A stretch of 64,000 bases of DNA from the NCBI GenBank assembly GCA_021018995.1, contig CM037585.1:72542646-72606645 (forward strand), in the 5' to 3' direction. This document shows positions 8,697 to 39,337 of the stretch, piece by piece; positions within the stretch are counted from its first letter, which is position 1; each line of letters opens with the position of its first letter. The translations under genes and the position numbers were made by a program. Origin of the DNA: Chloranthus sessilifolius (Eukaryota > Streptophyta > Magnoliopsida > Chloranthales > Chloranthaceae). A model generated the notes under the pieces. The model did not search any database, was not told where the DNA came from, and saw only the letters and a list, made by a program, of their open reading frames with translations.

Positions 8697-8790
8697 GTAG
8701 AAGCATTCACGCTTCATAGACGAAGTGTCGACGAGTCATAGAAAAGCGTCGACGCTTCATATGAAAGCGTCATCACCGTTGGATTTCTCC
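8697..8790. repeat. A-type dyad cluster (intron)
   Basis: Four units including gaagtgtcgacgagtc, aagcgtcgacgcttc and aagcgtcatcacc, lying between the exons ending at 8,828 and starting at 8,648 of the minus-strand gene. Confidence 0.65.
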
Positions 8791-9425: not shown

Positions 9426-10429
9426 GACGTGATATTGCCTCATTTTGAATTTACCTTATGCTCGAATTCTATAATATAGGAAAGCCTTGTTTGGTCGTTT
9501 GCTTCCCATTTCAGCAGTCTTAGAAAGCTGATGGCACCAGCAACCTTGTGTGGGGAGCACTTGTTGTTAATCTCGTACGCCTAGATCTCAGAAAAATAAA
9601 ATAAATATTAGATGACTTTCATAATCATCAGCGCTTCGTAGGAAATAAAATGGGACATTCTCTGAGAGACGGCATTTACCTGTAGGACAATAGTGCAACC
9701 ATAAATATTATAGTCCTACAGTGCCTTTGCTTTCTCAGCTCTACCCCTCATCGTCTTCGCTTTCTCCACACCCTAGAAGTTGAGTGTACGTGTGACGGCC
9801 CCGTGGATATAAAGTTGAAATTGGGGAGATCATCAACGAGGTAGAGGTGAGAGTTGCCGAGGTTGTAATGTGAGTTTGGAAAGAGGACGATGGTGAGGAT
9901 GAACAACAGACAGAGTTTCAGAAAATCATCGTTAGCATCCTGGTCGACTCTCATAATCGTTGCTTCGATGTGTGACCCTTTAACCACTTGGAGGCCCCTG
10001 AAAAACCTATATCTAATGGTTCATTCTTTAGGAATCTCTAACCTCGCAGGGTAAACGGCAGGGTTGATCATTCGAAGAGCAGTTATCAAGGCAAAATTAA
10101 GGGTCCAAAATCTGATAATGCCAGACTTGAAAGTCCCAAAATTTCAGGCATTGTCATGGTCTCAGAACTTGATGATTGCGTCCAGAAGGTTATTGATGAT
10201 TTTCACGCCCTTTGGAGTCACAAAGAATACACGAAAGACCAAATCATTGAGCAAATTTTTTCTCCCCTCAGATGTCGCGTCATAAATGTCCCGACACTTT
10301 GCGATGGTGCACTTAGTCGTTGGGGTTTTGAGAACTATCTTCAAAATATGTGACACAGAAAAAGAAGAAGTTTAGAGAAGAAGGTACTAATAATAAGAGA
10401 GGTGTTGCTTCCATTTACAAGTGCAACTG

Positions 10430-11540
10430 CCTCAAATGTTGGAGCATCAACGCTCCAAAAGTCACAGCGGGGAGGCGCCCCACCCATAAATGTTGGAGCG
10501 TCGACGCTTCATTTATGGAAGGGATGGAGCTTCTATTTGGTATTTTTATAGCAGAATAAAAATAAAAGTATACTCACCTTATTACTAGATGCAGGAAAAG
10601 GGTTTCGCTGCTTTGATGTTTCTTACTGCGCTCCGAAAGATGAAAATGTGGAGGGCAAAGGTGAAAAGTAATTTGTGAATTTGTAATTCACAAAATTGCC
10701 ACCTTAAATATTTTTCTCGAATGAGAATGATGGTCATTGTACACCACAATGTCACACGTCGTAATCCCGTCCGCCTCACCCTGCTCTTTATTTAATATTC
10801 TGACAATGGTAATAAATAAAATGCGTTCGGGGGTTGCTTCGCACATAATGGTGCAACATATCAAATTTTGGAGCACTTCGTATCATGTACAAAGCATTAA
10901 TGCTTCCTTGTCATAGTGGATTCGCTAACAGGAGATAGCGTCAGTGCTTCTTACCTGAGCGCTAGCACTCCTCATGAGGAGCGAAGCTTCTTTTGATAGA
11001 AGGGCCATTAATGTTCAATATTCGACTAATAAATGTTAAACATTTCGCCAATTAATGGACTCCCCTAAGGGATGCTCGAAGGGGTCTCTTAGACATTTAA
11101 TTAAAATGGTAATGATTACCATTGAGAACTAGGAGGTCGTTCCCCACTTCTCATTTAATGTTCTGACAACAGTAATAAATGAAGTAAGGCCGGACACGCT
11201 ACATGTCAAAAGGAAGTCGTCTTTCATCTCACATAGGGAGCGCAAACACCTTGGTTACTAGCGTAAATGCTTCGGTTAGTAGAGTTAAACACTTCGTTCA
11301 GAAGCGTTTTCGCTTCATACCGAAGCATAATTTCGAATTGTAATGTCCACCATTGAAAACTACGATATCATGCGCCGCTTTTTATTAATGATATTACATC
11401 AGACAAAATCAAGATGTCAGGCACAGACTCTCAGTGCCTCGCCATATTTTTGTTATTCTGATTTTGCCTTTTTGATTTTGTCAATGGTAACCATGGTTAA
11501 AGCACGGTAAAATTAGGAAAATGAGGGACTGTCGCATCAG
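10430..11540. promoter_or_regulatory. Upstream region of the element A gene with A-type dyads
   Basis: No gene seen. This lies 5' of the minus-strand gene. Dyad clusters lie at 10,435-10,525 (gagcatcaacgctcc, gagcgtcgacgcttc), 10,865-11,000 and 11,190-11,335 (gcgcaaacacc, gcgtaaatgct, aagcgttttcgcttc). A phrase reading ttctgacaa...gtaataaat occurs twice, near 10,797 and 11,160. Confidence 0.55.
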
Positions 11541-11618: not shown

Positions 11619-11645
11619 CATATATATATATATATATATATATAT
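11619..11645. repeat. TA dinucleotide tract
   Basis: About thirteen TA repeats at the junction of the element A terminus and element C. Confidence 0.9.
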
Positions 11646-11936
11646 GGCAAAGGGGAAAATGCACCCGGGAGTAGAGATATCTCTACGCCAATTGATATGC
11701 GCGCGACACGTAGCGCCTTTTTTTGTGAAGTGATGGGTAGCATGGGGCCCACTTTACTAACTATGGTTAAACTTTTAAAATATTTTAAAAGTTATATTCC
11801 TTTTCAACCGTCATTCTTGACTTTTTTAGAAGTCTTTTTAAAGTTTTTTCTTTTCTCTCTCTTCTCTCTTTTTCTACAAAAGTGTCAGACTTACTTTTTT
11901 AAGTATATTTTACTAAAAAAATGTGAGCGCCCCTTA

Positions 11937-12170
11937 GTGAAGCGCAATCACCTTGGCAGCGAAGCGTTGAAACCTCGATAGCGAGGCGCTTGCACCCCGG
12001 CGGCGCAGCATTGACACCCCGACACCATGGTGCCAATGCCTCTATATCGAGGTGTCGGCATCGGCATCCCAACGCTTCGCTAAAAAAAATAATTGGGGCA
12101 TCGGCGCCTCATTTCAGCGGCGCAGGCGCCTCTATATCAAGGTGTCGGCACTTCGATAAAAAAATAAAAA
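11937..12170. repeat. 22-bp dyad array, C type, left half
   Basis: Consecutive 22-bp units begin gtgaagcgcaatcacc, gcgaagcgttgaaacc, gcgaggcgcttgcacc and gcgcagcattgacacc. The array then becomes gaggtgtcggc-type and less regular up to about 12,170. Confidence 0.8.
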
Positions 12171-12209
12171 ATAAATAAATTTTTAGCGAGGTACCAACAT
12201 CTAGACATA

Positions 12210-12363
12210 GAGGCGCCAACGCCCCTAAAACGAGGCGTCGGCACTCTTGCGTCAGGGTGTCAGCGCTTCACCATCGAGGTATCAGCGGCTCACTATCGGG
12301 GTGTCGGCGCCTCATTTTTGGGACTTTGGCGCCTCAGTTTCGGGGTGTCAGCGCTTTGCTATT
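12210..12363. repeat. 22-bp dyad array, C type, right half
   Basis: Seven consecutive units of exactly 22 bp begin gaggcgccaacgcccc, gaggcgtcggcactc, agggtgtcagcgcttc, gaggtatcagcggctc, ggggtgtcggcgcctc, gggactttggcgcctc and ggggtgtcagcgctt. The consensus is GAGGYG-TCGG-CGCCTC, a G/C-flanked version of the element A dyad. Confidence 0.85.
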
Positions 12364-12633
12364 GGGCGGCCACATTTTTTGAGTAAATAATACCTAAAAA
12401 AGTAAGTCTGACACTTTATTGGAAAAATGGAGTGAAGAAAGAGACTTTAAAAAAGTCAATAATGGCGGCTGGAAGGATATTTAACTTTTAAAATATTTTA
12501 AAAATTTAACCCTAATTAGTAAAGTGTGCCCCATGCCACCCATCACTTCACAAAAAGGGCGCTACGTTTCATGCCCATATCAATTGGCACAGAGATATCT
12601 CTATGCCCGGGCACATATCCCCGACCCTCTATA

Positions 12634-12897
12634 TATATATAATCTGAATAATGGACTCCTAAAGTCACTGATGCGTGCACTTAATTCCTCTCATCAATCA
12701 CTCTATCTCTTTGATTGGTAAGAGATTATTTATACAAATTAGACCTACTGACTCACTTCTCTTTCATTTTTACGCAGTAGCTAGAGCTGTTAAAGGACCG
12801 GGCCAGGTGGGTAAACTGATTGAAGGATGGATCGACTGATGAAGGCTATGCCTTAACTATTTGTGCTTGGCTTTTTATAAGATTGGCGCTGGCTACC
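12634..12897. other. Unassigned stretch
   Basis: No coding or structural feature I can support. It begins with AT-rich sequence at the right edge of element C and leads into the duplicated target of the next transposon. Confidence 0.4.
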
Positions 12898-19329: not shown

Positions 19330-19742
19330 TGCCCACTTATTTACTGCAAGTGCCCACGTCCCAAATCCCTTGAAAGACATTGATTGCATAGAATCAGATG
19401 ATAGAAGTCTCATTTCACCTAGATCATCCACACAATAGATCTTGAGATCATGGTGCACCTATCAAACGGTAAGTTTTATACTCCACATAACACAAATCCC
19501 CAAAAATGACCTTAAAATCACGTTTGAGGGTGATGCGTGTTATATGATTCAAGGAAATTTTTTAGGGATCTATGACAAATTTAATCTAACACTGACCGTT
19601 TGATAGGTGCACCATGATCTCAAGATCTATTTTGTAAAAGATATATGTGAAATATGACCTCTATCATCTGATCTAACGCAATCAATGGTGTTTTAGGGGT
19701 CAAATATGTAGCGCTTTCAGTAATTAAATAGGTGGGTGCGAT
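19330..19742. mobile_element. Palindromic MITE / fold-back element
   Basis: The two halves are inverted copies of each other over at least 150 bp. Left arm phrases gtgcccacttattta, cattgattgca, cagatgatagaagtc, tagatcttgagatcatgg and tgcacctatcaaacggt all recur inverted in the right arm (accgtttgataggtgca, ccatgatctcaagatcta, ctatcatctg, caatcaatg, taggtgggtgc). The inner 35-bp block is identical in both arms. No coding sequence. Relatives occur near 3,100, 54,710 and 61,600. Confidence 0.8.
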
Positions 19743-19954: not shown

Positions 19955-20100
19955 CCTCTTTTCAAATCATTTACTGTTTTCATTTTACTTTTTCGTTCGA
20001 AGTCGGTGGAGAGTCGTTGTCGCTTCGTGGACGATCGCGTTCAAATCTACAACCTTCAAGCTACCAAATCTGTAAGTTAGAATTTAAATAGTTTCCATCG
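19955..20100 (+). promoter_or_regulatory. Probable transcription start and 5' leader of element B
   Basis: A TATA-like ataaatag at 19,942-19,949 precedes a non-coding leader that ends in a good splice donor (aaatct|gtaagt, GT at 20,072). The dyad array begins 100 bp further on, inside this putative leader intron. No acceptor is assigned with confidence. Confidence 0.35.
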
Positions 20101-20167
20101 TTATAGATTTTTTTTTTTCTCCTCTCTTTGGTGCACATTTTGACATAATTTTTTTAGGTTTTCCCAT

Positions 20168-20365
20168 ATGTAATCGATATCGATCTTACATGTAATCGAT
20201 ATCGATCCTATATGTAATCGTTATCGATTACATATTGAGTCACTATCGATTATATGTAGAGTCGCTATCGATTACATTTACAGTCGATAACGATTATATA
20301 TGTAGTCGTAATCGACTATATAAATTGTGGATGACGACTTTATAACAAATCGATATCGACTCTCT
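20168..20365. repeat. 22-bp dyad array, B type, block 1
   Basis: Nine consecutive 22-bp units start tcgatatcga, tcgatatcga, tcgttatcga, tcactatcga, tcgctatcga, tcgataacga, tcgtaatcga, tggatgacga and tcgatatcga, each followed by a 12-bp AT-rich spacer. Confidence 0.9.
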
Positions 20366-20637
20366 ATGAATATAATTAATACCCATCATATGAATTAATT
20401 TCCCTATAGTTATTACCCTCGATGCCATAATAAATCATACGAGGTTTTATATTTATCTCAGCCGACGTTCAATTTATTGCCAACTACCCTTTTGTAAAAC
20501 CATTATGGCAAGTTAGGTTGGAAGAATGAGAAAATTTAATACAACGATTTGTATTCCACAATCTAGGAGCTTTAAATACAGGTTTAGTTCGTCCTTAGCA
20601 AACCACCTATCATCCCTACCTGCCCATATTTTTCCCA

Positions 20638-20922
20638 ATGTCTGACGACGAAGAAAAAACCTTCTATAACCCAATCAAGTTCGAGCCTGTATGGGAGGAC
20701 CCACCACCACCACCAGAACCAGATCCTCTGCAGTTCCTGTGGGACGAGTACGATGAAGTAATGGAGATTTTGGCGAAGGAAGAAAAGAAGAAGAGGAAGG
20801 AAGAAAATAAGAAGAGGAAGGAAGAAAAGAAAAAGAAGAAGGAAGAAAAGAAAAAGAAACTTAAGACGGAACCACCCGCCTCTCCACCCCATCCACCACC
20901 TGCTCTTCATCCATCTTCCTAA
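20638..20922 (+). CDS. Small acidic-then-lysine-rich protein of element B (hypothetical)
   Basis: 94 codons. The N-terminus is acidic (MSDDEEKTFYNP), followed by PPPPPEPDP, a helical stretch LWDEYDEVMEILAKEE, then about 35 residues of almost pure Lys/Glu/Arg made by tandem repeats of gaagaaaagaa-like DNA, and a Pro-rich tail. It lies 0.7 kb upstream of the Ulp1-type gene and on the same strand, separated by dyad arrays. No family recognised. It could be a separate gene or an upstream exon, as no obvious donor follows. A degenerate Lys-rich echo of the repeat lies at 21,220-21,270. Confidence 0.4.
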   Translation: MSDDEEKTFYNPIKFEPVWEDPPPPPEPDPLQFLWDEYDEVMEILAKEEKKKRKEENKKRKEEKKKKKEEKKKKLKTEPPASPPHPPPALHPSS

Positions 20923-21139
20923 ATTTTCTTTTCATTTTTAATTATAAGTGAAAAATTTTGAATGTAATTGAAAAATTTTGCAAGTAAATGAAACTTTTTG
21001 ATGCAATGGCGACTTCATGAAATCTTTTGAGTCAGTAAATTAAATATTTTCTATATAAATAAGGGAAATTTACCTGACAGGTAAATTAAACATTTTGAGA
21101 TCATTGTAGTCTTATATTGAATTGATGGCGATTTCATAA

Positions 21140-21215
21140 GTAATCGATATCGATTACATTTAGAGTCGGTATCGATTACATATAGGGTCGATATCGATTA
21201 TATATGTAATCGATG
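21140..21215. repeat. 22-bp dyad array, B type, block 2
   Basis: Four units (tcgatatcga, tcggtatcga, tcgatatcga, tcgatgtagg) at exact 22-bp steps. Confidence 0.85.
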
Positions 21216-21358
21216 TAGGTAAAGAAGAAGGAAGAAAAGAAAAAGAACAAAAGAAAGAAAAAGAAACTTAAGAGTCAGTAAATTAAGTAATTTCTATATA
21301 AATAAACATTTTGAGGTCATTGCGAATTTATATTGAGTTGTTGGCGATTTCATAGGTA

Positions 21359-21510
21359 ATCGATATCGATTACATCTAGATTCGATATCGATTACATATA
21401 GAATCGGTATCGATTATATATAGACTCGATATCGATTATATATAGAGTCGGTATCGATTACATATGTAATCGATAACGACTCTATATGTAATCGATACAG
21501 GTTTTATATA
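21359..21510. repeat. 22-bp dyad array, B type, block 3 (upstream of the Ulp1-type gene)
   Basis: Seven units at exact 22-bp steps: tcgatatcga, tcgatatcga, tcggtatcga, tcgatatcga, tcggtatcga, tcgataacga, tcgatacagg. It ends about 90 bp before the start codon of the gene at 21,600, a position suited to a promoter-proximal control region. Confidence 0.9.
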
Positions 21511-21599
21511 TACATTTCATCAACATTTTTAACTATCCTTGTTAGTATGGGGCTCAGTCCTTTCTTTTTTATTACAGTTCATTTCAAAAGGCTGTCAAG

Positions 21600-24500
21600 A
21601 TGGTTGTACACCGAGCTGTTGCCAAGTGTTCGCCCAGTGCCATTTCGAATCTCTACGAAAATGCTACCCCAGCTCGGAAGAAGTTACTGAGAGATTCAGT
21701 TTTTGGTGGAATATTTCAAATGCCCAAGGGTGTGGGATTTCTTTCCGATGTGGTGGATGCGATGTTGACATTTTGGGTTGAAAAAAACCACTTCCGAATT
21801 GGGAAGACTGATGTCTATCTTCGGAAGATAGACATTGCATTGATACTGGGCCTTGCCGTAGTTGGCCCAGAAAAGTATACCCCATCCGTTAAACCATCGG
21901 AAGAACAAACCATTCGATACAAATACTTTCGTGGAACGCCTCCTGGAAAAATTCTCCGGTCTCATATAGATGCTGCAATTTGGAGAGCGGAAAGTGATGA
22001 GGACTTCTTAAAGTTGTCCCTTCTGTTTGTGCTGTGCATATTTCTCTTCCCCGGGTCCCACCATCAGATTTCGAAAGACCACATCGACCTCATCGATGAT
22101 GTGGAGACCTTTAACCGAACTCCGTGGGGTCTGCACATCTACCAAGACTTGATCGAGTATATAATTAAGGGCGCGGTGAATAGAAAAACCGCCGAGATGG
22201 ATAAAGCCCTGAAGACGTACAACACATATGGATGCATATGTGTACTTCAATGGTGGGCTTATGAGATCCTGCCCGATATATCGCCATCCCAGCTAGGCCT
22301 CAAGGACCCTTTCCCACGGCTGCTGAAATGGTCGGACAGGGCGCAGTCAAGGATCAAAGGTTACACTCGCGGGCAGATGTTAGACAGCAAGGTATGAGGT
22401 CTATTGCCTATTCAAAAAAAAGCAACTTACCGATTCATTCTAGAATCGATAACGATTCATTACAGAATCGATACCGATTCATTTACGAATCGATAACGAT
22501 TCCTTAACAATCGATAGCGATTCCGTACAGAGTCGATAACGACTTACTAAGTAGTCGATAACGATTCATTAAATAATCGTTATAGCGATTTTTTAACGAA
22601 TCGATAACGATTTATTAAATAGTCGGTACCGATTCTTTACATAATCGAGAGTGATTTATTATATATAACGATCATTTTATTCTGTTGTTTACATGTTTCA
22701 TTTTCTTTCAAAAGGTTCGCGCTCCCCTCGTGCCTCAGGGCTTTGAATTAGAGATACCCGTGTTAAGAGAATATCTACGGGTTCAAAAGGAGGTTGGGGG
22801 GAAGAGGAAAGAACCGGTCAAGAAAGCTGTGGAAGAGATGCGGCCGAAGAAAAAAAGAAATTATATTCCGGTCGAGAATATTGGAGAGGAAGAATGGGAT
22901 GACGCATCGACGTCTGAAGAAGAACCCCTCTCGAAAAAGGGCCCCGTCCATGTGGGAGAGGGTCGGCCAAGAACTAGGGGGGCCACCAAGGAGAGCCTGG
23001 CAGCGAAAGATAGCCCAGCTGAACCGTCCACCTCCAATGATTCTTTGTTGAGGAGGGTCGATCATTTGACACTGGATAACTTGAAGCTCACCCAAAGAAT
23101 GAGCGATTTGAAGGGAGAGAATAAGGCCCTGGCTAAACGTTGCGCTTCTTTAGAGAAACTATGCAACTCCTTCAATGAGAGGCTGAATTCAAGGGATGCG
23201 GAGTGGCAGAAGTTAAATCACTACAACTATTTGGTCAGAAAGGGCCAGACGGATATAAAAGAACTCCTTGAAAATTTATTGGAGACGAGACCTAAGGTAT
23301 GTGTTGAAATCTGGTTTTAGATGTTCAATTTTGTTAACATAAATCGATATCGATTATATATACAGTCGATATCGATTATATATGCAATCGTTATCGACTC
23401 TATATACAGTCGATATCGATTATATATATAGTCGCTATCGATTGTAAAATCTATAGCGACTATATATATAACCGATAACGATCATATATAAAATCGAGAG
23501 CGACTATAAGTACAATCGATAATGATTATATTTAAAATCGATTTGGACTTTTTAAAATGTGGACCAAAAATTAATTCTTATTTTGCATCATTATTACGAT
23601 GTACAGGATGTGGCTATGGAGGAGCTGATATCGAAGGTGTGCGACACAGCCTTCGATAAGGAACCATCAGCTCCTGTGCATCAGGTTCCTCCTCCTCCTC
23701 CCGTTGATGAAGTGAAGGCAGCTGCTGACAAGCAGCCTGAGACCCAAACTGATAAGGGTCCTGCTGGTGAAGAGGAAACCTCTTTTCAATTGCCTCACCA
23801 ACAAGCTGAGCTTCGCTTAAGACCTAGGCAAGCGAAAGTCAGCAAAGTAATTGCCGTCAAACCTAAGGCACAGCGAAGGGTAGCGGCTGAAAAGAAGCCT
23901 ATTACCGGTCACCGGTCTATTTGTCAAGATGCTCCTCGTGACAATGAGCAAAATATATGCTAGACATATGGAACAAGCCTCTGAAGGAGGACGAGTAAGT
24001 TATTCTACCCTGAATACTTAACTTTATTATTATATATTTATCGTGAAGAATAGTTAAATTGGCCATTTTTTATGCAGAGAATATGTTAACACTGTCGGCA
24101 AGTATAAGTTGGTGGTGCAATCCTTCAGATGTCTGGCGGGAACTCAGTACCTGGATAACTTTGTAAGTTTAACATACTGTAGGCAAAATCAAGAATGGTT
24201 AAAGTTGTCGACAACTCGAAAAAGAGTCGATATCGATTCCTTATAGAGTCGATAACGATGACTTACATAATCGTTATCGACTCTCAAATTAATCGAGTTC
24301 GATGGCTTTTAGAGTCGCTAACGATGGCTTATGTAATCGTTAGCGACTCTGTACATCATCGATATCGATTCATTAGAGAGTCGATAACGATTTCGATGAC
24401 TTAAATAATCGTTATCGACTCTCAAATTAATCGATATCGATGACTTATAGAGTCGATAACGATTATGTATTTAACTCTAACTGCATATTTTAATCTAACT

Positions 24501-25456
24501 GCATTGGTTTCAGGTTATGGGCGCCTACCTGAGACATTTGAAAGTAATTAATGATAAAATTCATCCTGATAAAGAGGTCAAAAACTTCCTTATGGACCCT
24601 GCCGCGCTGACGTACATGGGCTATGAACTGAGAGATTTCAACAAATTCCTGCTTGTTGAAAAATTATACGACCAGTCGATCGAGGTTCAAGTTCAAAGGT
24701 GGGCTGCCTATAGACAAAGAGAGACCAGAGGAAAGAAGCTGATAGAAACTTTCTTCTTCAATGAGCTTCAGAATCTGTGGGCTCACGAATGCAACATAGT
24801 ATGCTTTTATCCTCTTTATAATTATTCTTTTTAATTTTTCTATCATACCCTTTGAGATTATATTACTTTTTTGTAGATATTTATGCCAATATATTCAGAA
24901 CAAGCACTACACTGGGCGCTTGCGATCGTAAAGGTAGTCAAACGATCGATAATGATCGTCGACCCTATATTTAATAGGCCCTCTAAGAAAAGATATGTGT
25001 CCCAATTGCAGGTGCTGGTAAGATATTTTGCTTAGTATATCTTTTATCATTGTTAGCTTAACATATCTGACACTCCTCTCTATTATTTCGAAACAGACCC
25101 AATACCTTCCCGTGATTTTATATTCGTACGGTGACTCCGCTACACTAATCAAGAAGAGATATCCTTGGTCATCTAGTGACTGCCGGATCAAAGCCGTCCC
25201 CCGACAGACCAACTCCTGTGGTTGTGGAGTGTTTGTTGTGAAGTATGTCGAATACTTTATGATGGGGAAGAAATTTAACTTCGCGCCATCAGATATAGAT
25301 AGGATCAGGGCAGAAATTGGCCATATACTGGCTATATACAACGGCGATGATGAGTCTGAAGCACGACAAAAAGGAGGGGGAGCAGCAGCAGTGTGGTTGT
25401 ATTTGAATATTTTTGTAATTGTAAATGAAATATTTTTTCTTAATGAATTATTTTGA
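21600..25456 (+). CDS. DUF1985-like / Ulp1 (C48) cysteine protease, seven exons, element B
   Basis: Exons: 21,600-22,391; 22,715-23,296; 23,607-23,994; 24,078-24,162; 24,514-24,798; 24,877-25,017; 25,097-25,456, all with GT..AG junctions and matching phases. The product is about 876 residues. Residues 1-264 form a helical domain like DUF1985 of plant transposon proteins (VYLRKIDIALILGL; LLFVLCIFLFPGSHH; LIDDVETFNRTPWG). Residues 265-458 have a KKKR basic patch, an acidic Ser/Glu patch and a coiled coil (LTLDNLKLTQRMSDL). Residues 459-587 are Pro-rich and basic. The C-terminal ~160 residues are a Ulp1-type protease with His (ALHWALAIV, ~722), Asp (IMIVDP, ~739), Gln and Cys (PRQTNSCGCGVFVVKY, ~794 and ~798). 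One problem: exon 3 reads into TAG at 23,961-23,963, and the LDIWNKPLKEDE reading that joins exon 4 is in another frame. Either there is a one-base frameshift near 23,950, or the protein ends there and the protease part is made separately. Family knowledge: Ulp1 proteases cut SUMO conjugates, and related transposon proteins can act in anti-silencing. Function here is inferred. Confidence 0.75.
22444..22665. repeat. 22-bp dyad array, B type, block 4 (intron 1)
   Basis: Ten units, mostly at 22-bp steps: tcgataacga, tcgataccga, tcgataacga, tcgatagcga, tcgataacga, tcgataacga, tcgttatagcga, tcgataacga, tcggtaccga, tcgagagtga. The array fills most of intron 1 (22,392-22,714). Confidence 0.9.
23343..23545. 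repeat. 22-bp dyad array, B type, block 5 (intron 2)
   Basis: About ten units: tcgatatcga, tcgatatcga, tcgttatcga, tcgatatcga, tcgctatcga, then tagcga, gataacga, tcgagagcga, tcgataatga and tcgatttgg forms, with 22-bp steps apart from one short unit. It occupies intron 2 (23,297-23,606). Confidence 0.9.
24226..24470. repeat. 22-bp dyad array, B type, block 6 (intron 4)
   Basis: About eleven units with cores tcgatatcga, tcgataacga, tcgttatcga, tcgagttcga, tcgctaacga, tcgttagcga, tcgatatcga, tcgataacga, tcgttatcga, tcgatatcga and tcgataacga. A 22-bp step holds except for one 28-bp unit. It occupies intron 4 (24,163-24,513). Confidence 0.9.
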
Positions 25457-25529
25457 ATATAATTGCACTATTTTTATGTAGTTGTAGTTAAAAAGTAGAA
25501 ATAGCAACCATTAGTGACTACATATATAG

Positions 25530-25835
25530 TCGTCATCGACTATATAAATAATCGGTGACGACTCTGTATGTAATCGCTACCGACTATATAACTAATCGTT
25601 ACGACTCTTTATGTAATCGCTAACGACTATATAACTAATCGTTAACGACTCTTTAGGTAATCGATATCGACTCTATATAGAGTCGTCATCGACGGTATCC
25701 ATAATCGATACCGATTCTTAAATGAATCGATATCGACTTTATAAATAGTCGATGGCGACTCTATATAGAGTCGATATCGATTATGGATACAGTCGATGAC
25801 GACTCTATGATACATCGGTAAAGACTATATTACAG
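25530..25835. repeat. 22-bp dyad array, B type, block 7 (between convergent genes)
   Basis: Thirteen or more units, nearly all at 22-bp steps: tcgtcatcga, tcggtgacga, tcgctaccga, tcgttacga, tcgctaacga, tcgttaacga, tcgatatcga, tcgtcatcga, tcgataccga, tcgatatcga, tcgatggcga, tcgatatcga, tcgatgacga. It lies between the end of the Ulp1-type gene and the end of the transposase pseudogene. Confidence 0.9.
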
Positions 25836-25900
25836 TAAAAAAACATGGATTCTGAATTTCTCATTTACATTCAATCTATCATTATTAAAAATATACACTG

Positions 25901-28471
25901 TCAGCCCATCGGTCCCACTGCCGTGCAGCTCCTGCGGTTGTGACCATATTCACTGCACCTGCTACACTGTAGTGCCCTAACCTCACCCTTAGACCTTATC
26001 CTTCTCTTCCTCGGACGGCCGGCTTGCTTTCGGCAATAATAGGGTGGTCTCACTTTCATATTTTCAGGGAGTTGCTCTGCTTGGAACTCCCATTGACTTT
26101 TATCGAGGGTGGGAACCCATTGCTCGTCATATGTATGGTAGTTGTAACTTCTTCGATTGATGGCCGCCACGGCATGGGAGCAAGGCAAGCCATGAATGTG
26201 CCAATGGCGGCAACTACAGGTCTTATGTTCCAAGTCGACGTGATGAATAAAATTTTCGAAATTGACTTGGAATTGATCGCGCCCGTATGGTTGAGCTCTC
26301 TTTCTACCAGCCCATTGCAACACCTTCTTCATGTGAGCGTCTGCTTTCGGGCAGAGAAGGGTGGTCCATTTCTCAGATAACTCTCTGCATTTTTGAAAAT
26401 AATCGGCGACTTTCTCTCTAGTAGTTCTGATTAAGTCGATAATTGGTCTCTCTCGAGCTATCTTTAGCATGCTGTTTAAACTTTCAGCAATATTCGTAGT
26501 CAGAGAATCGTACTGCCTTCCTTCCATATGTGCGCGTGCCCAATGCTTCGGATCTATTTTCAAAATATATTCTACGGCCTGAGAATCAGCAGGATCTTTC
26601 TTCATTTCGTTAATAAAATAATCAAATTTCTCTTTCGAATATGCACGCGCGGCGCACCACCATAGACCCTTCACATTGTTCCTGGGATACTTGTGCTGCA
26701 AATTTTGTTTCATATGCCGCATGCAGTAGTTGTGATATGCATTAGGGAAGATACGTTTCACCGCATTTATTAAACCCTTCGACCTGTTCGTGATAAATAC
26801 GAGATCTTCGTTAAACCCACCGATCACGAACGCACCTACCCGTTCAAGAAACCACATCCACGTATCCTCTTCTTCTAACTCGACCACGAAAAATGCTAAC
26901 GGTAATATATGACCATTACCATCTTGCGCAGAGGCGATAAGTAGGATCCCTTCGAAATGTCCTCATAGGTGTGTGCCGTCTACAAGCAATATGCGACGAA
27001 GTGTATTGCGGTAGCTTCCGATGCATGGGCCAAAACTCTAAAAAAATCTTTGAAACTTACCGTCAAGAGTAAGTTGAAAGGATGTTTGTACATTAGGATC
27101 TACCCTCTCCATCTCCTTCACGTAGGCCGGTAGATCAACAAATTGTCCTTCCCAACTTCCTCTAATATCATTAAGGGCAAGCTCTTTTCCCCTCCAAGCT
27201 TTTGCATATGAGATTTGCACATTATAAGCTTTTGCAATATCAAACATTATCGACGCCGGTGTGTAGTCGAATCCTTCCATAAGTTTATCCCGTACATAGT
27301 TCGCTACGAAGGAGATTGTTGCATTACGGTGACCGTGCGGTCCGATCTTAGCGGCTCCGCATGTGTGAGTACTATTGAATGTCTTGATTTGGAAAGAATC
27401 GAGCCCAGTCAATTTAGAAGCATGTATTCGCCACGAACAATCGGGTTCGTAGCATCCGGCTGTCACTCGATAACTAGCGGTCCTCAAAGGCCGAATTTGA
27501 AAGTTTTTCTCCACCGCGTGTTCTTTCAATGCTCTTTGAAATGTTTGTTTATCTCGGAAGTTCTCTCCAATTTTAAACGTCCAATTCTGATATTCAGTTT
27601 CCACCTCTTCATCGGAGGAGTCGCCCGATGTCTCTGACATTTCGTAATCTCCGTCTACTAGGGGATTGTCAATGTCTCTCACAAAAATTTTCGGATCCTC
27701 TTTGATAAACCCATCCGGTTTGCCTTTATATTCTTCTTCTAAGGTATCTTCATTCATGGCTTGAGGATGACTACGCCATTCACTAGCGGTGTTCTCGGGT
27801 GGTTGACTAGATCCTTCACCGAAGGGGTTCTGATGTGATTGACCGGATCCTTCACAGAATGGATAATGGCGTGGTTGGCTAGGCCCTTCACCGAAGGGGT
27901 GCTCATGTGTATGGACATGGGGTTGAGTTACTCCGATAATTCCCATCGATGGCATGGTAGAACATAAGTCTTGAGTAAACCAAGTTGTCCATCCACCGGG
28001 GAAGATATGACTGAAATCGTTGGTATCCACCACCCTTTCTGAACTATAGTCTAACCATTGACTACATTGTTGTGACCCATGCATGTATTTTACTGGGTCA
28101 TCTTACGATTCAATCGGAGCATCATTTAAATCAAATGTTGCTTTCCCTCTGCCATCGTTCACTGCAATATAACCGTCATCGCCTAACGGGACGGTATCGT
28201 ATACAATTTCATCCTCAAACTTACATGGCTGAAATGAATGAGTCACAAAATCAGTCCCGCCGAGATTTACTTGTTCAGCTTCAACTGGGAAGGATGACAG
28301 TTCCTTAATGATGAATACTTTTATGACGTCCACTCCGGATTTATAAAACGTAAATAATGTAGCCAAATCATCAGAGTCCAAAATGTCGGCAACCACAGGC
28401 ATATTCACTATCTTCATATGAAACTTTGTGGAAATTGTTTCATCCGCCTTCGCAAAACTGACAGCAGACAT
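25901..28471 (-). pseudogene. MURA-type Mutator-like transposase of element B, broken
   Basis: A single minus-strand frame runs from the ATG at 28,471 to 25,901, broken only by stops at 28,103-28,105 (TAA), 27,038-27,040 (TAG) and 26,963-26,965 (TGA). N-terminal domain: about 120 residues with FDLNDAP. Then a MuDR-type DNA-binding domain (FRDKQTFQRALKEHAVEKNF; CSWRIHASK; HTCGAAKIG). The catalytic MULE domain has the first Asp in LLVDGTHL (codon at 26,978-26,980) and the Glu in NIAESLNSML. The second Asp position reads FITNRSKGL, where the family has Ser-Asp-Arg, so Asp is replaced by Asn. Then a SWIM zinc finger (CSCRHWHIHGLPCSHAV) and a CCHC knuckle (CSRCSEYGHNRRSC). Stops plus the missing Asp argue it is inactive. 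It converges on the Ulp1-type gene. Confidence 0.85.
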
Positions 28472-29010: not shown

Positions 29011-31521
29011 TGTGACAGCCCGAATTTCAGCACCTCGAAACCCGTGCCATCAACACGATCCTCTAGGCCGTGCCCCATGGATATGTACGGAACATTGGTA
29101 TAATCAAGCAATAATAAAGAGATAAGCAATTAACTGCATAAGCGAAAAAGAAATCAATATGCCCATCTGGCACATACAAAAGACGGTTCTACTTTCATGC
29201 CACTACATTAACAGAGAACCGATCCGAACCATCGGTGATACACAGATCACCCCAGATGGTTCGCCCAAAAGAATAAAGTCAATCTAATTACATTATTTAA
29301 CAAGAACAAAGGCTTGACATACCAAGCAGTACAATCTGCTCTCAAAAACCCTCTCTCAAAGTACTCAGCGGAGTCTCCTAGAAGAAGTCCTCGGGAGGAG
29401 GCTCCAACTCGTCCCTAGGCACGTAATCCGAATCATCCGAATCAACGTCTCCCGAAGTCTTGGCCGCTGCTAATAATGGACCTGCAACATATAGTCTAAA
29501 GGGGTGAGCTACATCCTAGCTCAATAGGGAACAACACAATAAACATATAAATTAAAATCTCACATATATTCTATGGTATTCTAAGCATAATGTATCTATA
29601 CACTTGCTAGAAAAACAGTTTAAAAGATGGCACTTTACATTCAGTTTACTGGTAGTTTGCATATTTTACTTTACTATTGATTTATCATGAATGACACTGA
29701 ACAGGCCTAAAGCAAAACTTAAATCTTCAACTTAAGTAATCCCCGAGCAATATAGCATCGAGCCCCGATGGAATACCACCATTGTCGCCTAAATAGACAG
29801 TTGTTATATGTATTCCCTAGGAATACTACCCAAGCCCCTTTCTCAATAGGCGGCAGGGTTAAATCTCATCTCAACATCCCTGGGATATGCTTACTGTGTA
29901 CGGATAGACCCCCGCACAGGTGTACGGATTGGCCGTCGTACCGATCACGGATATCCTACCGCGTCAGTCGTGGGTATCCCGCCACGTCGGTGGGGTATAC
30001 TCAACAAACCTCAAATAACAAAAATAACATGTGCTTTACATATAATTGGTCACCGTATAAAGTGCTATCTTATATCAGTTAGGCCTCAACAGTAGTTTTT
30101 CAATCTTGTTTACATCCCTAGGATGTCTAAATTACTCGCATCACCTTGATGCCCTTATCACTTTTTCATCCCCTGGGGATATCTCATTTTCATTAACTTA
30201 CTTGTCTCAATTATTCACATCACACTGATGCCTTTATCATTTTCTTGGTGTCACCCACACACCCATTTTTATAAAGCTTCTCACAATTAAAATATTTTCA
30301 AATTGATATCTATATCACTACATACATGCTCTTACAATTACAGTACATGTTCAAGGTGTTCCCTACCTCAAGTTTCTGAAGGTCCAAGCATCAAGGTCCC
30401 ACGCGGCTCTTTGTGCTCGCATTCACATGTACCACCTATGGTACATCACAATATATGCAACACATCACTAAAGATGTAATAAAGAAGGTCCTAGACCCTC
30501 CATGAACCTCGAAGTCCAATTAAGAAGTCAAGTGAATCTGCCAAAATCGATTAATCGATTCCCAAAATCGATTAATCAAAACCCAAATCGATTAATCGAT
30601 TCTCAAAATTGATTAATCGAAATCCAAAATCGATTAATCGATCCCAAATCGATTAATCGAAATCCCTAAAATGGTAAGGTCGATTCTCAAATTGAGCAGT
30701 CGAAAACCTAAAATCGATTAGTCGATTTCAAATCAATTAATCGAAATCCAAAATCGATTAATAGATTTCCCAACTCGATTAGTCGATTTCCCCAGGTCTT
30801 GTTTCTTCAGCCACTGGAGGTACCTAGTCGATTAGTCGATTTCCAAATCGATTAATTGAAATTGGGCATCCCTGGCTTTTCAACTTCTACACCAAAATCG
30901 ATTAATCGAATCTCAATTTCGATTAATCGATTTGGCCAAATTCAGCCCCCTTTCGGGCTGTTCTTTCCAATCTTTTCCTTTTCTATTTTCTTTTTTTTCT
31001 AAGTCTTTAGTCTAACATTTTAACCATACTTAACTGAATTTAACCATCATTCATCTATGCATTTAATTCTAATAAACTTACCTCCATAATCCCTTTTAAA
31101 TGATTGATTTGTTGGGTTTGATGGCTAGGGTTCTAGCTTTTGCTTCAACGATCCCAACGCGTTGAATCCGGCAATCAATGCTCAATCTTCCTCTTGATTT
31201 GTATTAACACCTAGATCCAATAATTCCTCTTGGTTTCTCTCTCTCGCACTTCTTAACTCTCTCTTCAACAACCAAATAAATGAAACCTAGGGTTATTAAA
31301 CCCTTATATCCTCTTTCTAGTTTCGGTATTAAGCACATACACCAGAGATAGGTGTACGTGACCACTAACTCACACTATACACTACACTTAGATCACATTT
31401 GTACCACGTCAGTTCATCACTCCATGAGTTCATTGTTTAACCATCACTTGGTCAAACCTACGACCAGTCAGGCACGAATCTCAAGGTCACTGCTTAACGC
31501 TCAAAATTTTGGGATATTGCA
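29011..31521 (-). repeat. 3' LTR (left copy) of the gypsy element
   Basis: On plus it begins tgtgacagcccg and ends gggatattgca. On minus it starts TGCAATATCCC and ends CTGTCACA, typical of Del/Tekay LTRs. A TATA-like GGATATAAGG (minus) lies at about 31,303-31,312. The palindrome array at 30,541-30,935 is downstream of that TATA in the direction of transcription. Confidence 0.95.
30541..30935. repeat. TCGATTAATCGA palindrome array in the left LTR
   Basis: More than a dozen copies and variants of aaTCGATTAATCGAtt, spaced mostly 19-21 bp by CCCAAA/TCCAAA-like linkers. Some copies show single changes such as TTGATTAATCGA or TCGATTAGTCGA. The 12-bp core is a perfect palindrome with two CG dinucleotides. 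Confidence 0.9.
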
Positions 31522-31533
31522 TTCTCCCCGCCT
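31522..31533 (-). promoter_or_regulatory. Polypurine tract of the gypsy element
   Basis: Read on minus, GGCGGGGAGAA directly precedes the 3' LTR start TGCAATATCCC, the expected position of the plus-strand primer. Confidence 0.8.
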
Positions 31534-31927
31534 TGGGAATTTTTGTCCTCAAAAATAACTCAAAGGTGCGTCGGTTGGGTACCCCACACACTGGGGTGTC
31601 GCGTTCCCACACACAAAAGACGACGTATACCTCACACAATGCAAGAAATAGAAAGTAATGCAATGAATTTCTCAAAATGAATTAGATTTCATTATCGATT
31701 TCTAAAATTTACAGAGCTTCATTTACTATTCTCGCTACTTACAATTGACAATTTAAATATAACAGTACAAAACATCCAAAAAGTGATTACAAAATAAAAC
31801 CATCGTCAGCGCCACGCCACCCCTCTCCCCGACCGATCTAATGCTAGGGCAGTGCTCATAAATCATGGCTCGTGGTGGCTAGCTCGTCTCCGTAGGGCGT
31901 GGGCTGAATCATCTCGAGGGTCGCTCG

Positions 31928-33339
31928 TCAGCTGGGCGTCGAGCCGGATGCATCGGCAGCAGAGGTACTGGCATGAAAGGCTACACCCGAGTGGAAGGCG
32001 GTCCGGCCCGTAGACCACTCCTCCTCCTGCCCGAGGCGCTGCCGATAGTCCAATGGATAGATGTACCGTAGGGTGTGGTACATCAAGAAGTCCATCCGCC
32101 GGTTCATCCTCTCATTGTTGGCTTCCATCCGAGCCAACACGTCCTCTATAGTGGGCGCCGGGCGAGCCGCTCGTCGACGATATGAAGAAGTGGGTGTGGC
32201 AATTGCTAACTGCGACGGCGATGTAGGTGAGGCGGTGGTATGGGAGGGCGCCCCCTCAGCTGGTGAATCGATGGGGTGTGCTCCCCCCACAGGTGGGTCC
32301 TGATGTGGTGGTGGGGGTGGTGGTGGTGCTACTGGTGCTGCTGCTGCTGGGCCCTGAGCTGGTAGGGTCCGCTTTAGCAAGTTGTAACTACGGCTCCATG
32401 AAGCAATGGAGAAATGCTTCACGCAGTCCATAGCCCTCTCCTCATGGGGCAAAACGGCGTACCCTGGAGCGTCTGAGTAACACTCGAGCATGCTCGAAAT
32501 GAGGCGAGCATATGGCATCTTTTTTTTGGGCCTCAAATTGCCCTTCATCAACTTCCCCTTTATGTAGACCATCCCCTCGAGGATGATCTTTGTAGCGTCA
32601 AACCAATGGCCACAGAAGGCTGCGTACAGTGCATGCTAAACTAACTCCACCCACTCGGTGTCATGGCGCATCGGGTAGAGGTTGCACTTGATTATGGAAT
32701 CAAGCATCCACATGTAATGGGAGAGATCGACCCTCCTAATGGATGATCCCAACCCCTTTTTCCCCTTGGTCATTCGGGTCATAATTTCTTCAAATTTCAC
32801 CTCTTCTGCAAAGGGTGGGAAGAGGGTGGTCTCGGGCACAAAGTCCAAATAACATTCTAGGACTTCGTGGATGTGGCGACGAGTGAAGGTATAGTCGCGA
32901 CCCTCAATGGTGGTCGTAACAATGTCGTCGGTAGGTCCCTCCTTCAACCCTTGGTAAAATAGGCGGACCAGTCTAGGGTAGTAAGACCTGCGGAGTGGTT
33001 TTAAAAGATTGCCAAGGCCGGCCTTTACCAAGTAGTTTGAGCCCATTGGGTCTCACCCGCCACGTCGGGGTTGGTAAACAACTCCACGTCGAAGATAAAC
33101 TCATCTTCAAAGGTCTTAGCCGCCCACCATTCATTTGGTTGGGGTACATTTTCGGGTGGTAGTGGAATTGGTGAAGACTCGCGCGAAGACGCGCTCGTCG
33201 AACTGGATGTGGTATCCGATTTCGTCAGTGATGGGGTTCTTACGGGCGATGGGGTAGGTGGTGGCGGTGCGGCGTTCTTATGCCGAATTGTGAGCTTAGA
33301 TGTTGCCTTCTTCGAAGACAACCAGATTTTAGGCGGCAT
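31928..33339 (-). pseudogene. Additional gene of the gypsy element (putative plant transposon protein family), broken
   Basis: About 470 residues on minus from the ATG at 33,339, with one frameshift near 33,030 and one in-frame TAG at 32,636-32,638. Residues 1-75 are basic then Ser/Pro-rich (SSKKATSKLTIRHK; PPPPTPSPVR). The middle domain (YYPRLVRLFYQGL; IEGRDYTFTRRHIHEVLECY; EGMVYIKGKLMKG) matches my recollection of the 'putative plant transposon protein' domain often found next to plant retroelements. The C-terminus is Pro-rich then a short helix (EANNERMNRRMDFLMYHTLR). It sits between pol and the 3' LTR in the same orientation, behind its own TATA box and a palindrome array. Function unknown. 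A DNA-binding or anti-silencing role is my inference. Confidence 0.7.
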
Positions 33340-33565
33340 CTTGGAAATAAAATAGCAAAACTAGGGTTTCTATAGCTTGAAATGGAAAGAAGAACGAAAT
33401 CTAGGGTTTTACCTTAGGTGTTTGATCCAATGTGAAGTGATTTTAATCCAATCTCGAACTCAAACCGCGAAAATCCTAGGTCTCCAAGTCGCTTGAAGAA
33501 GAAAATCGCAAGGCGCGCAAGAACCAAAACCCCAAAATTTTCAAATGGGGATAAATCCCCCTCGA

Positions 33566-33582
33566 GTTTATATATATAGGCC
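33566..33582 (-). promoter_or_regulatory. TATA box upstream of the additional gene
   Basis: Minus-strand CCTATATATATAAACTC lies about 230 bp before the start codon at 33,339 and directly downstream of the palindrome array. A splice donor-like AAG|GTAAAA lies at about 33,410 in the leader. Suggests transcription independent of the 5' LTR. Confidence 0.5.
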
Positions 33583-33586
33583 CCGA

Positions 33587-34055
33587 TTCGATTAATCAAT
33601 TTCTAAAATCGATTAATCGAGTTTCAAAACTTAGTTCAGCTGTGCGAAATCGATTAATCGATTTCCAAAATTGATTAATCGAAACTCAAAATCGATTAAT
33701 GGAAATCATTTCGATTAATCGAAATCGTGGTCACTTAAAATTTCAACTTTTCGAGCTCACTGGCGTGAGCCAGTCGACTAATCAAATCTCTAAGTCGATT
33801 AATCGAAATCCCAAAATCAATTAATCAAATTTCACTTCGATTAATCGAAATCGTAACATCCTGTAAATTTTTCTAAAATCCTCAAGTAACTCGATTAATC
33901 GAGTTTCTAGTATCGATTAATCAAAATCCAAAATTGATTAATCGAAACCCAAATCGATTAATCGAAATTTCACTTTGTTATTTTTCTGAATCCCCATTCG
34001 ATCTCCACTCACTGGCATATGCCAGTCGACTAATCGACCAAAATCGATTAATCGG
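33587..34055. repeat. TCGATTAATCGA palindrome array upstream of the additional gene
   Basis: About fifteen copies and variants of TCGATTAATCGA with linkers like those in the LTR arrays. They lie between the chromodomain end and the TATA box of the additional gene. This is the only internal occurrence; the coding region has none. Confidence 0.9.
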
Positions 34056-34322
34056 TTTTGATCAGATTTCCAAATTTTTGTTATTTTTCTGTCTGTTTTG
34101 GTTTCTTGGTAAAACATGACCAGTTGGTCACTGGTTTGTGAAGCATGTCATCACGGTCATGTCATGGCTATGATGAATTCTAAGTATACATTCGACATGG
34201 TATTAGGAACACTATGCGGATTAAAAATTATTTCTGTTGCACAAATTGATCAGCAGATCGACATTGGATTACAACATATGGTTTAAATCCGCAACATGCT
34301 TGCGGTGATACAATTTTGACTC

Positions 34323-34610
34323 TCAAGCTGTCGCAAACAAGTCCGAAAACTGTTCCTTCACGTCGGCCTCTCGTTCCCATGTAGCTTCCTCGGCCGGATG
34401 ATACTTCCATCGAACAAGTACTAATGGAATCACTTTTGTCCGCAACACTTGTTCCTTTCGATCCAAAATCTCTGCCGGTTCTTCGATCATGCTCATATCC
34501 TCATGCATCTCAAATGATTTGCCACTCAACACATGATCAGGGTCATTAAGATACTTCCTGAGCATAGATACATGGAACACATTGTGTACTTGATCAAATA
34601 ACGGTGGCAA
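34323..34610 (-). pseudogene. Integrase C-terminus and chromodomain
   Basis: NVFHVSMLRKYLNDPDHVL is the conserved end of Ty3 integrases. EEPAEILDRKEQVLRTKVIP, VLVRWKYHP and EEATWERE form a plant chromovirus chromodomain, which directs insertion to modified chromatin. The reading frame upstream contains a TGA where the family has a Gly (before PFEVLGRVG near 34,665), so this block is cut off from the integrase core. Confidence 0.85.
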
Positions 34611-34726
34611 TCCAATGCGGTAAGCAACTTCCCCTACTCGACCCAGAACCTCAAATGGTCAAAGATAGCGGGGACTTAGCTTCCCTCTCTTTCCGAACCT
34701 CATCACGCCCTTCATAGGCAATACCT

Positions 34727-35497
34727 TCATGGACACCTGTTCACCCACCTTAAGTCTACACTCGTCTGCTTGATATCAGCGTAGCTTTTCTGTCTGCTCT
34801 GAGCCGCTTTGAGTTTGGCCCTTATCATCCGAACATAGGTGGCATTATCCTCAAGTATCTCAGGTCCCAAAACAAATTTCTGTCCCGTTTCCTCCCAATT
34901 GATGGGCGATCTATATCGCCGTTCGTAAAGAGCTTCATATGGTGTCATCCCAATGCTCATCTGAAAACTCTTGTTGTATATAAACTCAATCAACGGTAGG
35001 TGCTGATCCCACGATCCTTGCAATTCTAACATACATGCCCTAAGCATGTCCTCAATGATCTGATTGACCCTCTCCGTCTGCCCGTCGGTTTGTGGATGGA
35101 ATGTCGTACTGAAATCTAATCGCGTTCCCATTCCTTCTTGAAATTCCTTCCAAAACTTTTATGTATATAATGGGTCACAGTCAGAAACAATGCTACTCGG
35201 AAGCCCATGCAAACGGATGATCTCCTTCATGTATAGTTCTGCAAGTCTTCCCGCCGTGTACATCGTATTGTAAGGCAAGAAGTGCGCTGACTTGGTCAAT
35301 CGATCGACCACTACCCAAATGGCATTGTACTTCTTTACAGTACGCGGGAGCCCAACAATGAAATCCATAGAGGTCGATTCCCACTTCCATTCCTGTTTAG
35401 GTAGAGGCTGCAGTAATCTCGCAGGGTGTCTATGATCGATCTTCACTTGTTGGCACATCAAACACCGCGACACGTACTCTGCCACATCTTGCTTCAA
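34727..35497 (-). pseudogene. Integrase zinc-binding and catalytic core
   Basis: Two open pieces. 35,159-35,497 has the CC of the HHCC finger (CLMCQQVK), the first catalytic Asp in MDFIVGLP and the second in IVSDCDPLYT (family SDRDP; Arg to Cys). It ends at a stop directly before KFWKEFQEGMGTRLDF. 34,727-35,131 continues with HPQTDGQTERVNQ, the catalytic Glu in IIEDMLRA, and NKSFQMSIGMTPYEALY, ending by frameshift at SVDLRWVNRCP. A further TAG at 35,507-35,509 replaces one of two Trp codons upstream. Confidence 0.85.
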
Positions 35498-35674
35498 ACC
35501 TCTCCACTAGTAATTCTTTTTCAAGTCCTGATACATCTTTGTGCTTCCCGGGTGGATAGCATAGCTTGACTTGTGTGCCTCATCAAGGATAGTTCGCCGT
35601 AAGTCGACATTGTCCGAAATGCAGAGACGGCCCTTGAACAATAAGGAACCATCCTTCTTGATCGAAAACTCAGA

Positions 35675-35914
35675 TCAAATGCCTTGAGTTACATCTTGAC
35701 GAATCTTGGTTAGCATCGGGTCTTTCGTCTGTAGTTCATGGATATACTCAAATATCACCGATCTCACTGAGATATTAGCCAAGAAGGCTCCTGTAGTTTT
35801 TGACTCAATATTTGCATCATACAGTGCCAGATCCTCAAACAACTTCCATCGGTGCATACCCAAAATCAAACTAGCCAATTGAGTTGAACCCTTCCGACTC
35901 AAGGCATCGGCCAC
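35675..35914 (-). pseudogene. RNase H end and integrase linker
   Basis: MADALSRKG marks the end of the Ty3 RNase H region, followed by the linker to the integrase finger. It ends at TGA before SEFSIKKDGSLLFKGRLC. Upstream, between 36,150 and 35,915, RNase H motifs FTDHKSL and NMR-RRWIEF are visible with a TAG at 35,985-35,987. Confidence 0.75.
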
Positions 35915-36151
35915 TACATTAGCCTTGCCTGGATGGTACTGTATAGAATAGTCATAGACCTTGAGAAACTCTATCCATCTGCGCTACCTCATATTTAGTT
36001 CCTTTTGTGTAAACAAATATCTGAGGCTCTTGTGGTCGGTGAAAATCTCAAAAGTCTCACCATACAAGTAATGTCTCCAAATCTTGAGCGTGAAAATGAC
36101 CGCTGCTAATTCCAGGTCATGTGTCGGATAATTCTTCTCATGCTCTTTCAA

Positions 36152-36916
36152 CTATCTTGATCCGTAAGCTATCACCTTTCTGTGTTGATTAAGCACGCAG
36201 CCCAAACCACTATACGAAGCATCGCTGTATACTACGAACCCTCCACTGCCTGAAGGAATCGCAAGTACTGAAGCTAAAGTGAGTCTCTTCTTGAGTTCTT
36301 GAAAACTATTCTCGCATGCCTCACTCCATTCGAACCTTGCATCTTTCTGTGTAAGTCTCGTGAGTGGTCCTGATATCTTTGAAAAACCCTCAATGAAACG
36401 TCGATAGTAACCCGCTAATCCAAGGAAACTACGGATGTCGGTCATGGTCTTTGGTTGCTCCCAATTCACCACTGCTTCGATCTTTGCTGGATCTACAGTG
36501 ACACCATGCTTTGAGACAACATGTCCCAAAAAGCTAACTTCTTCTAACCCAAACTCGCACTTGCTGAGCTTGGTGTATAATTGGTGTTCACGTAGAGTCT
36601 GTAGGGCTATTCTCAAATGCTTCTCATGCTCTTCCTCTGATTTTGAATAGATCAGGATGTCGTCAACAAATACTATGACACAAGAGTCTAGGTGTGGTTT
36701 AAACACCATATTCATTAGATCCATGAATGACGCCAGGACATTTGTCAACCCAAATGGCATCACTAGGAATTCATAGTGTCCATACCGAGTCCTAAATGCA
36801 GTCTTCTGAATATCCTCTGCCTTGACTCTCAACTGATGATATCCAGATCTCAGATCGATCTTGGAAAAATACCTTGCTCCTTGCAGTTGATCAAACAGGT
36901 CATCTATCATAGGCAA
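36152..36916 (-). pseudogene. Reverse transcriptase core and start of RNase H
   Basis: Contains [20 protein letters not shown], the catalytic [44 protein letters not shown] and the first RNase H Asp ([15 protein letters not shown]). The polymerase YxDD-type motif is FVDD and looks intact. The frame is lost upstream by a frameshift near 36,905 and ends at TAG (36,152-36,154), where the family has Gln before LKEHE. Confidence 0.9.
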
Positions 36917-39335: not shown

Positions 39336-39337
39336 AC

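Follow-up and report, generated by a model that had tools for sequence, protein, structure and literature searches.

We analysed a 64-kb stretch of the Chloranthus sessilifolius genome (hereafter, the window) that contains element B, a transposon whose non-coding DNA carries arrays of the dyad TCG-N4-CGA repeated mainly in 22-bp steps. Judged by its sequence, element B is a Mutator-like element (MULE) with a transposase and a second gene predicted to encode a DUF1985-type domain, a leucine zipper and a Ulp1 domain. We consider it probable that element B is a VANDAL/Kaonashi-like MULE, and that the arrays are a putative binding platform for the VANC-type protein of the element itself. In the mechanism that we propose, the zipper would hold a dimer, with each of its two DUF1985-type domains reading a half-site (ARTCG). 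Because 22 bp is about two turns of B-DNA, consecutive dimers would lie on the same side of the helix, allowing dense or cooperative binding, and the bound protein would keep the non-coding DNA free of silencing methylation. The methylation-free state would then spread over the element and free its genes, with the effect limited to copies that carry the same array.

Arrays of a 14-bp palindrome in the non-coding DNA of element B

A preliminary description of this region had reported about sixty TCG-N4-CGA palindromes in seven blocks of 4 to 13 units. The count is borne out: 53 strict dyads lie between 20,168 and 25,830, in seven blocks, and the number of units is 63 (9 + 4 + 7 + 9 + 10 + 11 + 13) when one of the six half-site letters is left free, one-mismatch units being accepted at steps of 21–23 bp only. 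A direct scan of the window found 61 TCGNNNNCGA, 54 of them between 20,025 and 25,793, and all 39 exact 22-bp pairs of TCGNNNNCGA in the window fall inside 20,100–25,900. The same description had called the 22-bp period strict. Blocks 1 (9 units), 2 and 3 (7 units) keep a spacing of 22 bp throughout, with blocks 1 and 3 exact, but the later blocks also show steps of 18, 21, 28, 43 and 46 bp. Sequences generated from a first-order Markov model of the non-coding DNA contained a mean of 1.5 dyads, with a maximum of 8 over 500 runs, and no 22-bp pairs, against the 39 observed; the predicted 22-bp signal is thus present. Nine alternative half-site dyads, counted over the same interval, gave 0–5 dyads and 0–1 pairs each.

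The arrays lie upstream of each plus-strand open reading frame (ORF), within introns 1, 2 and 4, and in the region separating the two genes (Table 1). Consistent with the expected depletion in exons, none of the 53 strict dyads is found in 2,858 bp of exons and all 53 are found in 2,942 bp of non-coding DNA, the division being that of our own gene model, in which exon borders were set by eye on GT-AG. The conserved unit is larger than the 10-bp dyad first described. Although the TCG-N4-CGA core is present, the unit extends to a 14-bp palindrome, A-R-TCG-N-TA-N-CGA-Y-T (approximately ARTCGNTANCGAYT), with A at position −2 in 59 and T at position +11 in 55 of the 63 units, and mostly R at −1 and Y at +10. 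Likewise, the half-sites are kept, as had been proposed, but the four central bases do not all vary: the middle TA is also conserved (T in 57/63 units, A in 55/63).

A VANC-like protein with a predicted leucine zipper

The second gene of element B, which we refer to as VANC-like, has seven exons on the plus strand between 21,600 and 25,456. Exon 1 matches the Pfam family PMD above the cut-off (3.3e-10), and among 12 aligned members of the family, DUF1985 was detected in 11 (best 6.1e-15) and PMD in eight. A family profile of the first exon matched the VANC21 chain in the PDB (9lnj, 9lnk) with an E-value of 8.5e-5 over profile positions 72–257 (186 positions); VANC21 was the sole PDB molecule below an E-value of 0.01 in that search.

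Exon 2 contains a strict zipper of six leucine heptads, which was equalled by four of 20,000 shuffles of the exon, and a weak match to bZIP_1, below the cut-off. All six heptads are found in 24 of 30 copies of the B family (described below), one of which (L034) has a stop codon inside. The zipper pattern would fit a dimer on a two-fold symmetric site, with the function of the zipper predicted from the pattern of heptads. Five loci related to element A, a decayed MULE-like element in the first part of the window, were also fetched: four of them have 5–6 heptads, one (L054) with a stop inside, and the fifth has three. The element A of the window has no open zipper, its best run of four heptads containing stop codons.

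Array-selected places, and the transposase as a possible binder

We scanned the genome (2,168,743,587 bases in 32 contigs) for tandem pairs of TCG-N4-CGA at three spacings only. There are 39,345 pairs at 22 bp (144 for a backwards-pattern control), 702 at 21 bp (control, 212) and 154 at 17 bp (control, 278). Seven places were then chosen by array pattern alone, from the first pattern matches on contig C1. Three of them (p1, p3 and p7) contain a VANC-like exon, 48–69% identical to that of element B by piece, and p3 and p7 also contain Ulp1 and transposase. The arrays of p3 and p7 follow exon 1, precede exon 5 and separate the two genes, as those of element B do; p3 has a further array between its two Ulp1 exons (12,149–12,237 of p3), a site at which element B has none. 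Exons 2–4 were not located in p1, p3 or p7, and the exon 1 stretch of p3 has four stops as first read. The other four places gave no coding match at an E-value of 1e-4 in 9–16 kb, and are possibly remnants or non-autonomous elements.

In En/Spm-type elements, transposase binds subterminal repeats, and the arrays of element B could likewise be binding sites of the element's transposase. Consistent with this, a MULE transposase is encoded beside the arrays, and arrays without a coding match, as in four of the seven array-selected places, would be expected for non-autonomous elements. However, most arrays are inside the element, where they occupy three introns and the space between genes, and we know of no precedent for intronic transposase arrays. 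VANC21, by contrast, is located in introns and in intergenic and terminal non-coding DNA (PMC5735166). The match between protein clade and motif described below does not separate the transposase from the VANC-like protein, because both genes travel together. We consider it unlikely that the transposase is the protein for which the arrays serve, and favour the VANC-like protein in that role.

Array turnover among copies of element B

A search with exon 1 gave 6,895 first-look candidates, of which 145 were scored; all 145 match, with 100% identity for the window's own copy and 89–99% for the other scored copies. The best 30 of the 145, picked by protein, were read in detail (L024–L053, the first being the window's own). 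Together they contain 838 dyads, and of 688 spacings between neighbours of up to 100 bp, 519 are at 22 bp, 83 at 44 bp and 14 at 66 bp (616/688). Exon 1 is free of dyads in all 30 copies.

Slippage or unequal exchange might have produced such arrays as plain tandem repeats that no protein binds. The number of dyads in intron 1 varies from 4 to 10 between close copies, there are higher-order periods of 44, 66 and 106 bp, and half-sites are no better conserved than other non-coding DNA in recent copies (pairwise differences among the 30 copies: half-sites 8.7%, other non-coding DNA 5.5%, linkers 13.1%, exon 1 3.6%). Since unit numbers differ between copies, slippage or unequal exchange does act as well. 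We compared units in 389 triples selected on their outer units alone, both of which had to be dyads; the triples were pooled over the 30 related copies with strands mixed, such that positions −6 to 15 blend with their mirror positions. For every letter of the half-sites, the middle unit agrees with its neighbour in 95–97% of cases; the figure is 89–94% for the central TA and 46–86% elsewhere, which makes slippage alone unlikely. An earlier comparison of adjacent units was set aside, because units preselected by their half-sites are biased, and we relied on the triples. In addition, one motif recurs in seven separate blocks and in no exon, a relative with 58% identity in exon 1 has the motif beside the same exons, and a second family combines a different half-site with the same geometry. 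Repeat turnover without a bound protein is thus, in our assessment, a very improbable origin of the arrays.

A different half-site in a related clade

Element A contains a DUF1985-type piece, distantly related to the element B protein (about 35% identical), and a Ulp1 piece (Peptidase_C48, 9e-9). It also carries a second dyad, AAGCG-N4-CGCTT: with up to two mismatches, there are 59 in the first 13 kb of the window, two in the next 7 kb and two in the last 22 kb. Their spacings peak at 22 bp (11 pairs), followed by 21 bp (4 pairs). The half-sites of the two elements, ARTCG in B and AAGCG in A, differ in the third letter.

We scored 150 of 3,933 candidates from a search with the element A piece; the scored candidates other than element A itself are 53–82% identical to that piece. 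Five of these A-like loci were read, selected to cover a range of identities and to have long open frames. When up to one mismatch is allowed, each of the six A-like sequences (element A and these five loci) has 5–8 pairs of GCG dyads at 21–23 bp, and TCG pairs are absent. Eleven B-like sequences (element B of the window, p1, p3, two pieces of p7 and six of the 30 copies) have 10–39 TCG pairs and 0–1 GCG pairs. The places p1, p3 and p7 were picked by their TCG pattern and are not counted toward the match between clade and motif; the B-like sequences picked by protein (element B of the window and the six copies) contain TCG pairs but no GCG pairs. Between the two clades, protein identity is mostly 33–40% (31–46% by piece), whereas within clades it is 48–97% for B and, for A, 61–70% to L055. 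The array motif thus differs between related families, GCG in A-like and TCG in B, in a comparison of two clades only.

That the dyads instead bind a host factor (for silencing, the centromere or transcription) is highly unlikely in our view: CpG palindromes could suit host regulators, and the neighbouring Ty3/Gypsy element has its own TCGATTAATCGA repeats, but the half-site tracks the clade of the element's protein, whereas a host factor would be expected to prefer a single motif in all families.

Weight of the evidence

The preliminary description had interpreted the arrays as a landing platform for a dimeric DNA-binding protein. This appears to be the best-supported reading, given the relationship of the encoded protein to VANC21, its predicted leucine zipper, and a clade-specific half-site with constant geometry; that the arrays are the target of the element's own protein we infer from these sequence features.

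Several observations weigh against it. The match of exon 1 of element B to DUF1985 (6.9e-5) is below the Pfam cut-off; as a single sequence, exon 1 gave no PDB match; and its fold model is poor (predicted local distance difference test score, pLDDT, 54), with nothing below an E-value of 0.001 in the fold search. Near 23,908–23,963, exon 3 is interrupted either by an in-frame stop codon or by a very short intron, and it may be broken in this copy. Half-sites in the 30 recent copies diverge no less than the other non-coding DNA does, and purifying selection is not visible on that timescale; half-site divergence among these copies is probably driven mainly by CpG decay (CpG letters differ by 10.5% in half-sites, against 7.6% in exon 1) and by array misalignment. 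Exact GCG pairs, without mismatch, occur in only one of the six A-like sequences, and genome-wide there are 2,395 exact GCG-N4-CGC pairs at 22 bp, fewer than the 18,225 of the reversed control, which gives no support for the A motif alone. The match between clade and motif would represent at most one independent switch. Lastly, the published VANC21 sites are 9-mers in the same orientation rather than dyads.

The reversed control, CGC-N4-GCG, has some neighbouring matches 22 or 66 bp apart on contig C1 (9,913,344/9,913,366, and 9,920,148/9,920,170/9,920,236 in the region 9,920,148–9,920,267), and other adjacent matches at other steps, for example 37 and 50 bp. CGC-N4-GCG at 22 bp may be a third type of array and, as such, an additional code in this genome.

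A more specific proposal, which we put forward tentatively and regard as possible but rather doubtful, is that VANC proteins of one class dimerise by leucine zipper and read dyads containing CpG (xCG-N4-CGx′ at 22 bp) as a code. A single letter in each half-site (T or G) would separate co-resident families, and the CpG would make binding dependent on methylation, creating a self-locking on/off switch.

Relation to known VANC systems

The abstract of Sasaki 2022 (EMBO J) reportedly names motif sequence, density and helical periodicity as determinants. Because helical periodicity is said to be among them, phasing at 22 bp is probably not a novelty by itself.

In Arabidopsis, VANC21 and VANC6 act on short tandem-repeat motifs in the non-coding DNA of their own elements and bring about a loss of methylation, and VANC21 binds YAGTATTAY in vitro (PMC5735166). 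Element B shares with VANDAL21 (Hiun) and VANC21 a MULE-type element with a DUF1985-type protein (PMC5735166, PMC10398659), a short motif arrayed in tandem within introns and in intergenic and terminal non-coding DNA, a motif that differs between related families, and unit numbers that change fast. The terminal inverted repeats (TIRs) of VANDAL elements, VANDAL21 included, are degenerate (PMC10398659), and no significant TIR was found in element B. VANC6 and VANDAL6 form another pair of a related protein with its own tandem-repeat target, as in element B, although their motifs, AGTTGTCC and AGTTGTAC, are different and, unlike that of B, non-palindromic (PMC5735166). Ulp1-bearing VANC genes (KIU) occur in non-TIR MULEs, as in Kaonashi (PMC13317346); element B (exons 6 and 7) and element A also carry Ulp1. 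Meeting reports refer to VANC structures that had not been published and to coevolution with target DNA (PMC8756742, PMC12859917).

The unit itself differs. The VANC21 motif is 9 bp long, of one orientation and without CpG, whereas the B unit is a 14-bp palindrome with a CpG in each half and a 22-bp step. Arrays of a single orientation do not occur in element B, since its palindrome has no orientation; that feature is not shown to define the family. The predicted leucine zipper of the B protein may be a further difference. The main text of PMC5735166 has no words that begin with palindrom, dimer or periodic, the main text of PMC10398659 none that begin with palindrom, dimer, helical or periodic, and a literature search combining VANC, leucine zipper and palindromic returned no VANC-protein paper, by title, among the matches listed. 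Within the literature examined, the putative CpG-bearing palindromic target, with its proposed protein dimer, thus appears to be a variant distinct from the Arabidopsis VANC system.

One genome here offers a natural pair of related candidate anti-silencing proteins, the sites of which have the same geometry and are distinguished by roughly one letter in each half-site, and B-type sites number tens of thousands. Two open questions become testable: how VANC-type proteins choose their targets, and whether helical phase and the CpG in the site are of importance. Practical interest lies in sequence-addressed removal of DNA methylation to keep transgenes active.

Ends of element B and other features of the window

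Homology starts at 19,805 both in the nearest copy and in the distant relative p3, and on the right side homology with p3 extends to 28,591; the right-side stretch taken from the nearest copy did not match. No target-site duplication was found for element B. An exact second copy of nineteen bases from the left end (19,806), GGGAAATTTACCTGACAGG, lies within the element at 21,063. A 310-bp near-palindrome (74%) at 19,378–19,687, immediately beyond the left end, resembles a miniature inverted-repeat transposable element. The small ORF upstream of the VANC-like gene has no Pfam match at 0.01.

Table 1 Coordinates of elements, genes and dyad arrays in the window
Feature	Position	Strand	Remarks
Element A, decayed MULE-like	1–11,500 (approximate extent)	−	DUF1985-type piece 10,020–9,751; Ulp1 piece 7,269–6,892
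Left end of element B	19,805		First base common to nearest copy and distant relative p3
Dyad array 1	20,168–20,365		9 units at exactly 22 bp; upstream of small ORF
Small ORF, K/E-rich	20,641–20,922	+	
Dyad array 2	21,116–21,203		4 units
Dyad array 3	21,332–21,485		7 units at 22 bp; just upstream of VANC-like gene
VANC-like exon 1	21,600–22,391	+	PMD/DUF1985-type domain; Pfam matches, family profile
Dyad array 4	22,440–22,660		9 units; intron 1
VANC-like exon 2	22,715–23,296	+	Predicted leucine zipper from exon residue 111, 6 Leu heptads
Dyad array 5	23,338–23,553		10 units; intron 2
VANC-like exon 3	23,607–23,994	+	3′ end uncertain
VANC-like exon 4	24,078–24,162	+	
Dyad array 6	24,221–24,468		11 units; intron 4
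VANC-like exon 5	24,514–24,798	+	
VANC-like exon 6	24,877–25,017	+	Ulp1 (Peptidase_C48) part 1; Pfam 1.2e-5
VANC-like exon 7, to stop codon	25,097–25,456	+	Ulp1 (Peptidase_C48) part 2; Pfam 2.7e-8 on 25,097–25,399
Dyad array 7	25,524–25,830		13 units; between 3′ ends of both genes
MULE transposase region	25,904–28,471	−	Three reading-frame pieces (MULE, SWIM, DBD_Tnp_Mut domains)

Next to element B, at 29,011–41,851, is a Ty3/Gypsy chromovirus with gag, reverse transcriptase and chromodomain, the long terminal repeats (LTRs) of which are 92% identical. Palindromes of TCGATTAATCGA occur at irregular steps of about 20–21 bp in both LTRs (approximately 30,541–30,862 and 40,860–41,184), and also at 33,588–33,968, beside an extra coding region on the minus strand (33,360–31,928, three frame pieces) that resembles PF20167, below the cut-off. 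The VANC-like profile showed no similarity to the one piece of this extra ORF that was tested (probability 0.3%). The repeats and the extra region are possibly a parallel system in a retrotransposon. Finally, a 1-kb inverted repeat (67% identity) at 11,631–12,641 contains a GC-rich 22-bp repeat at 12,255–12,354.

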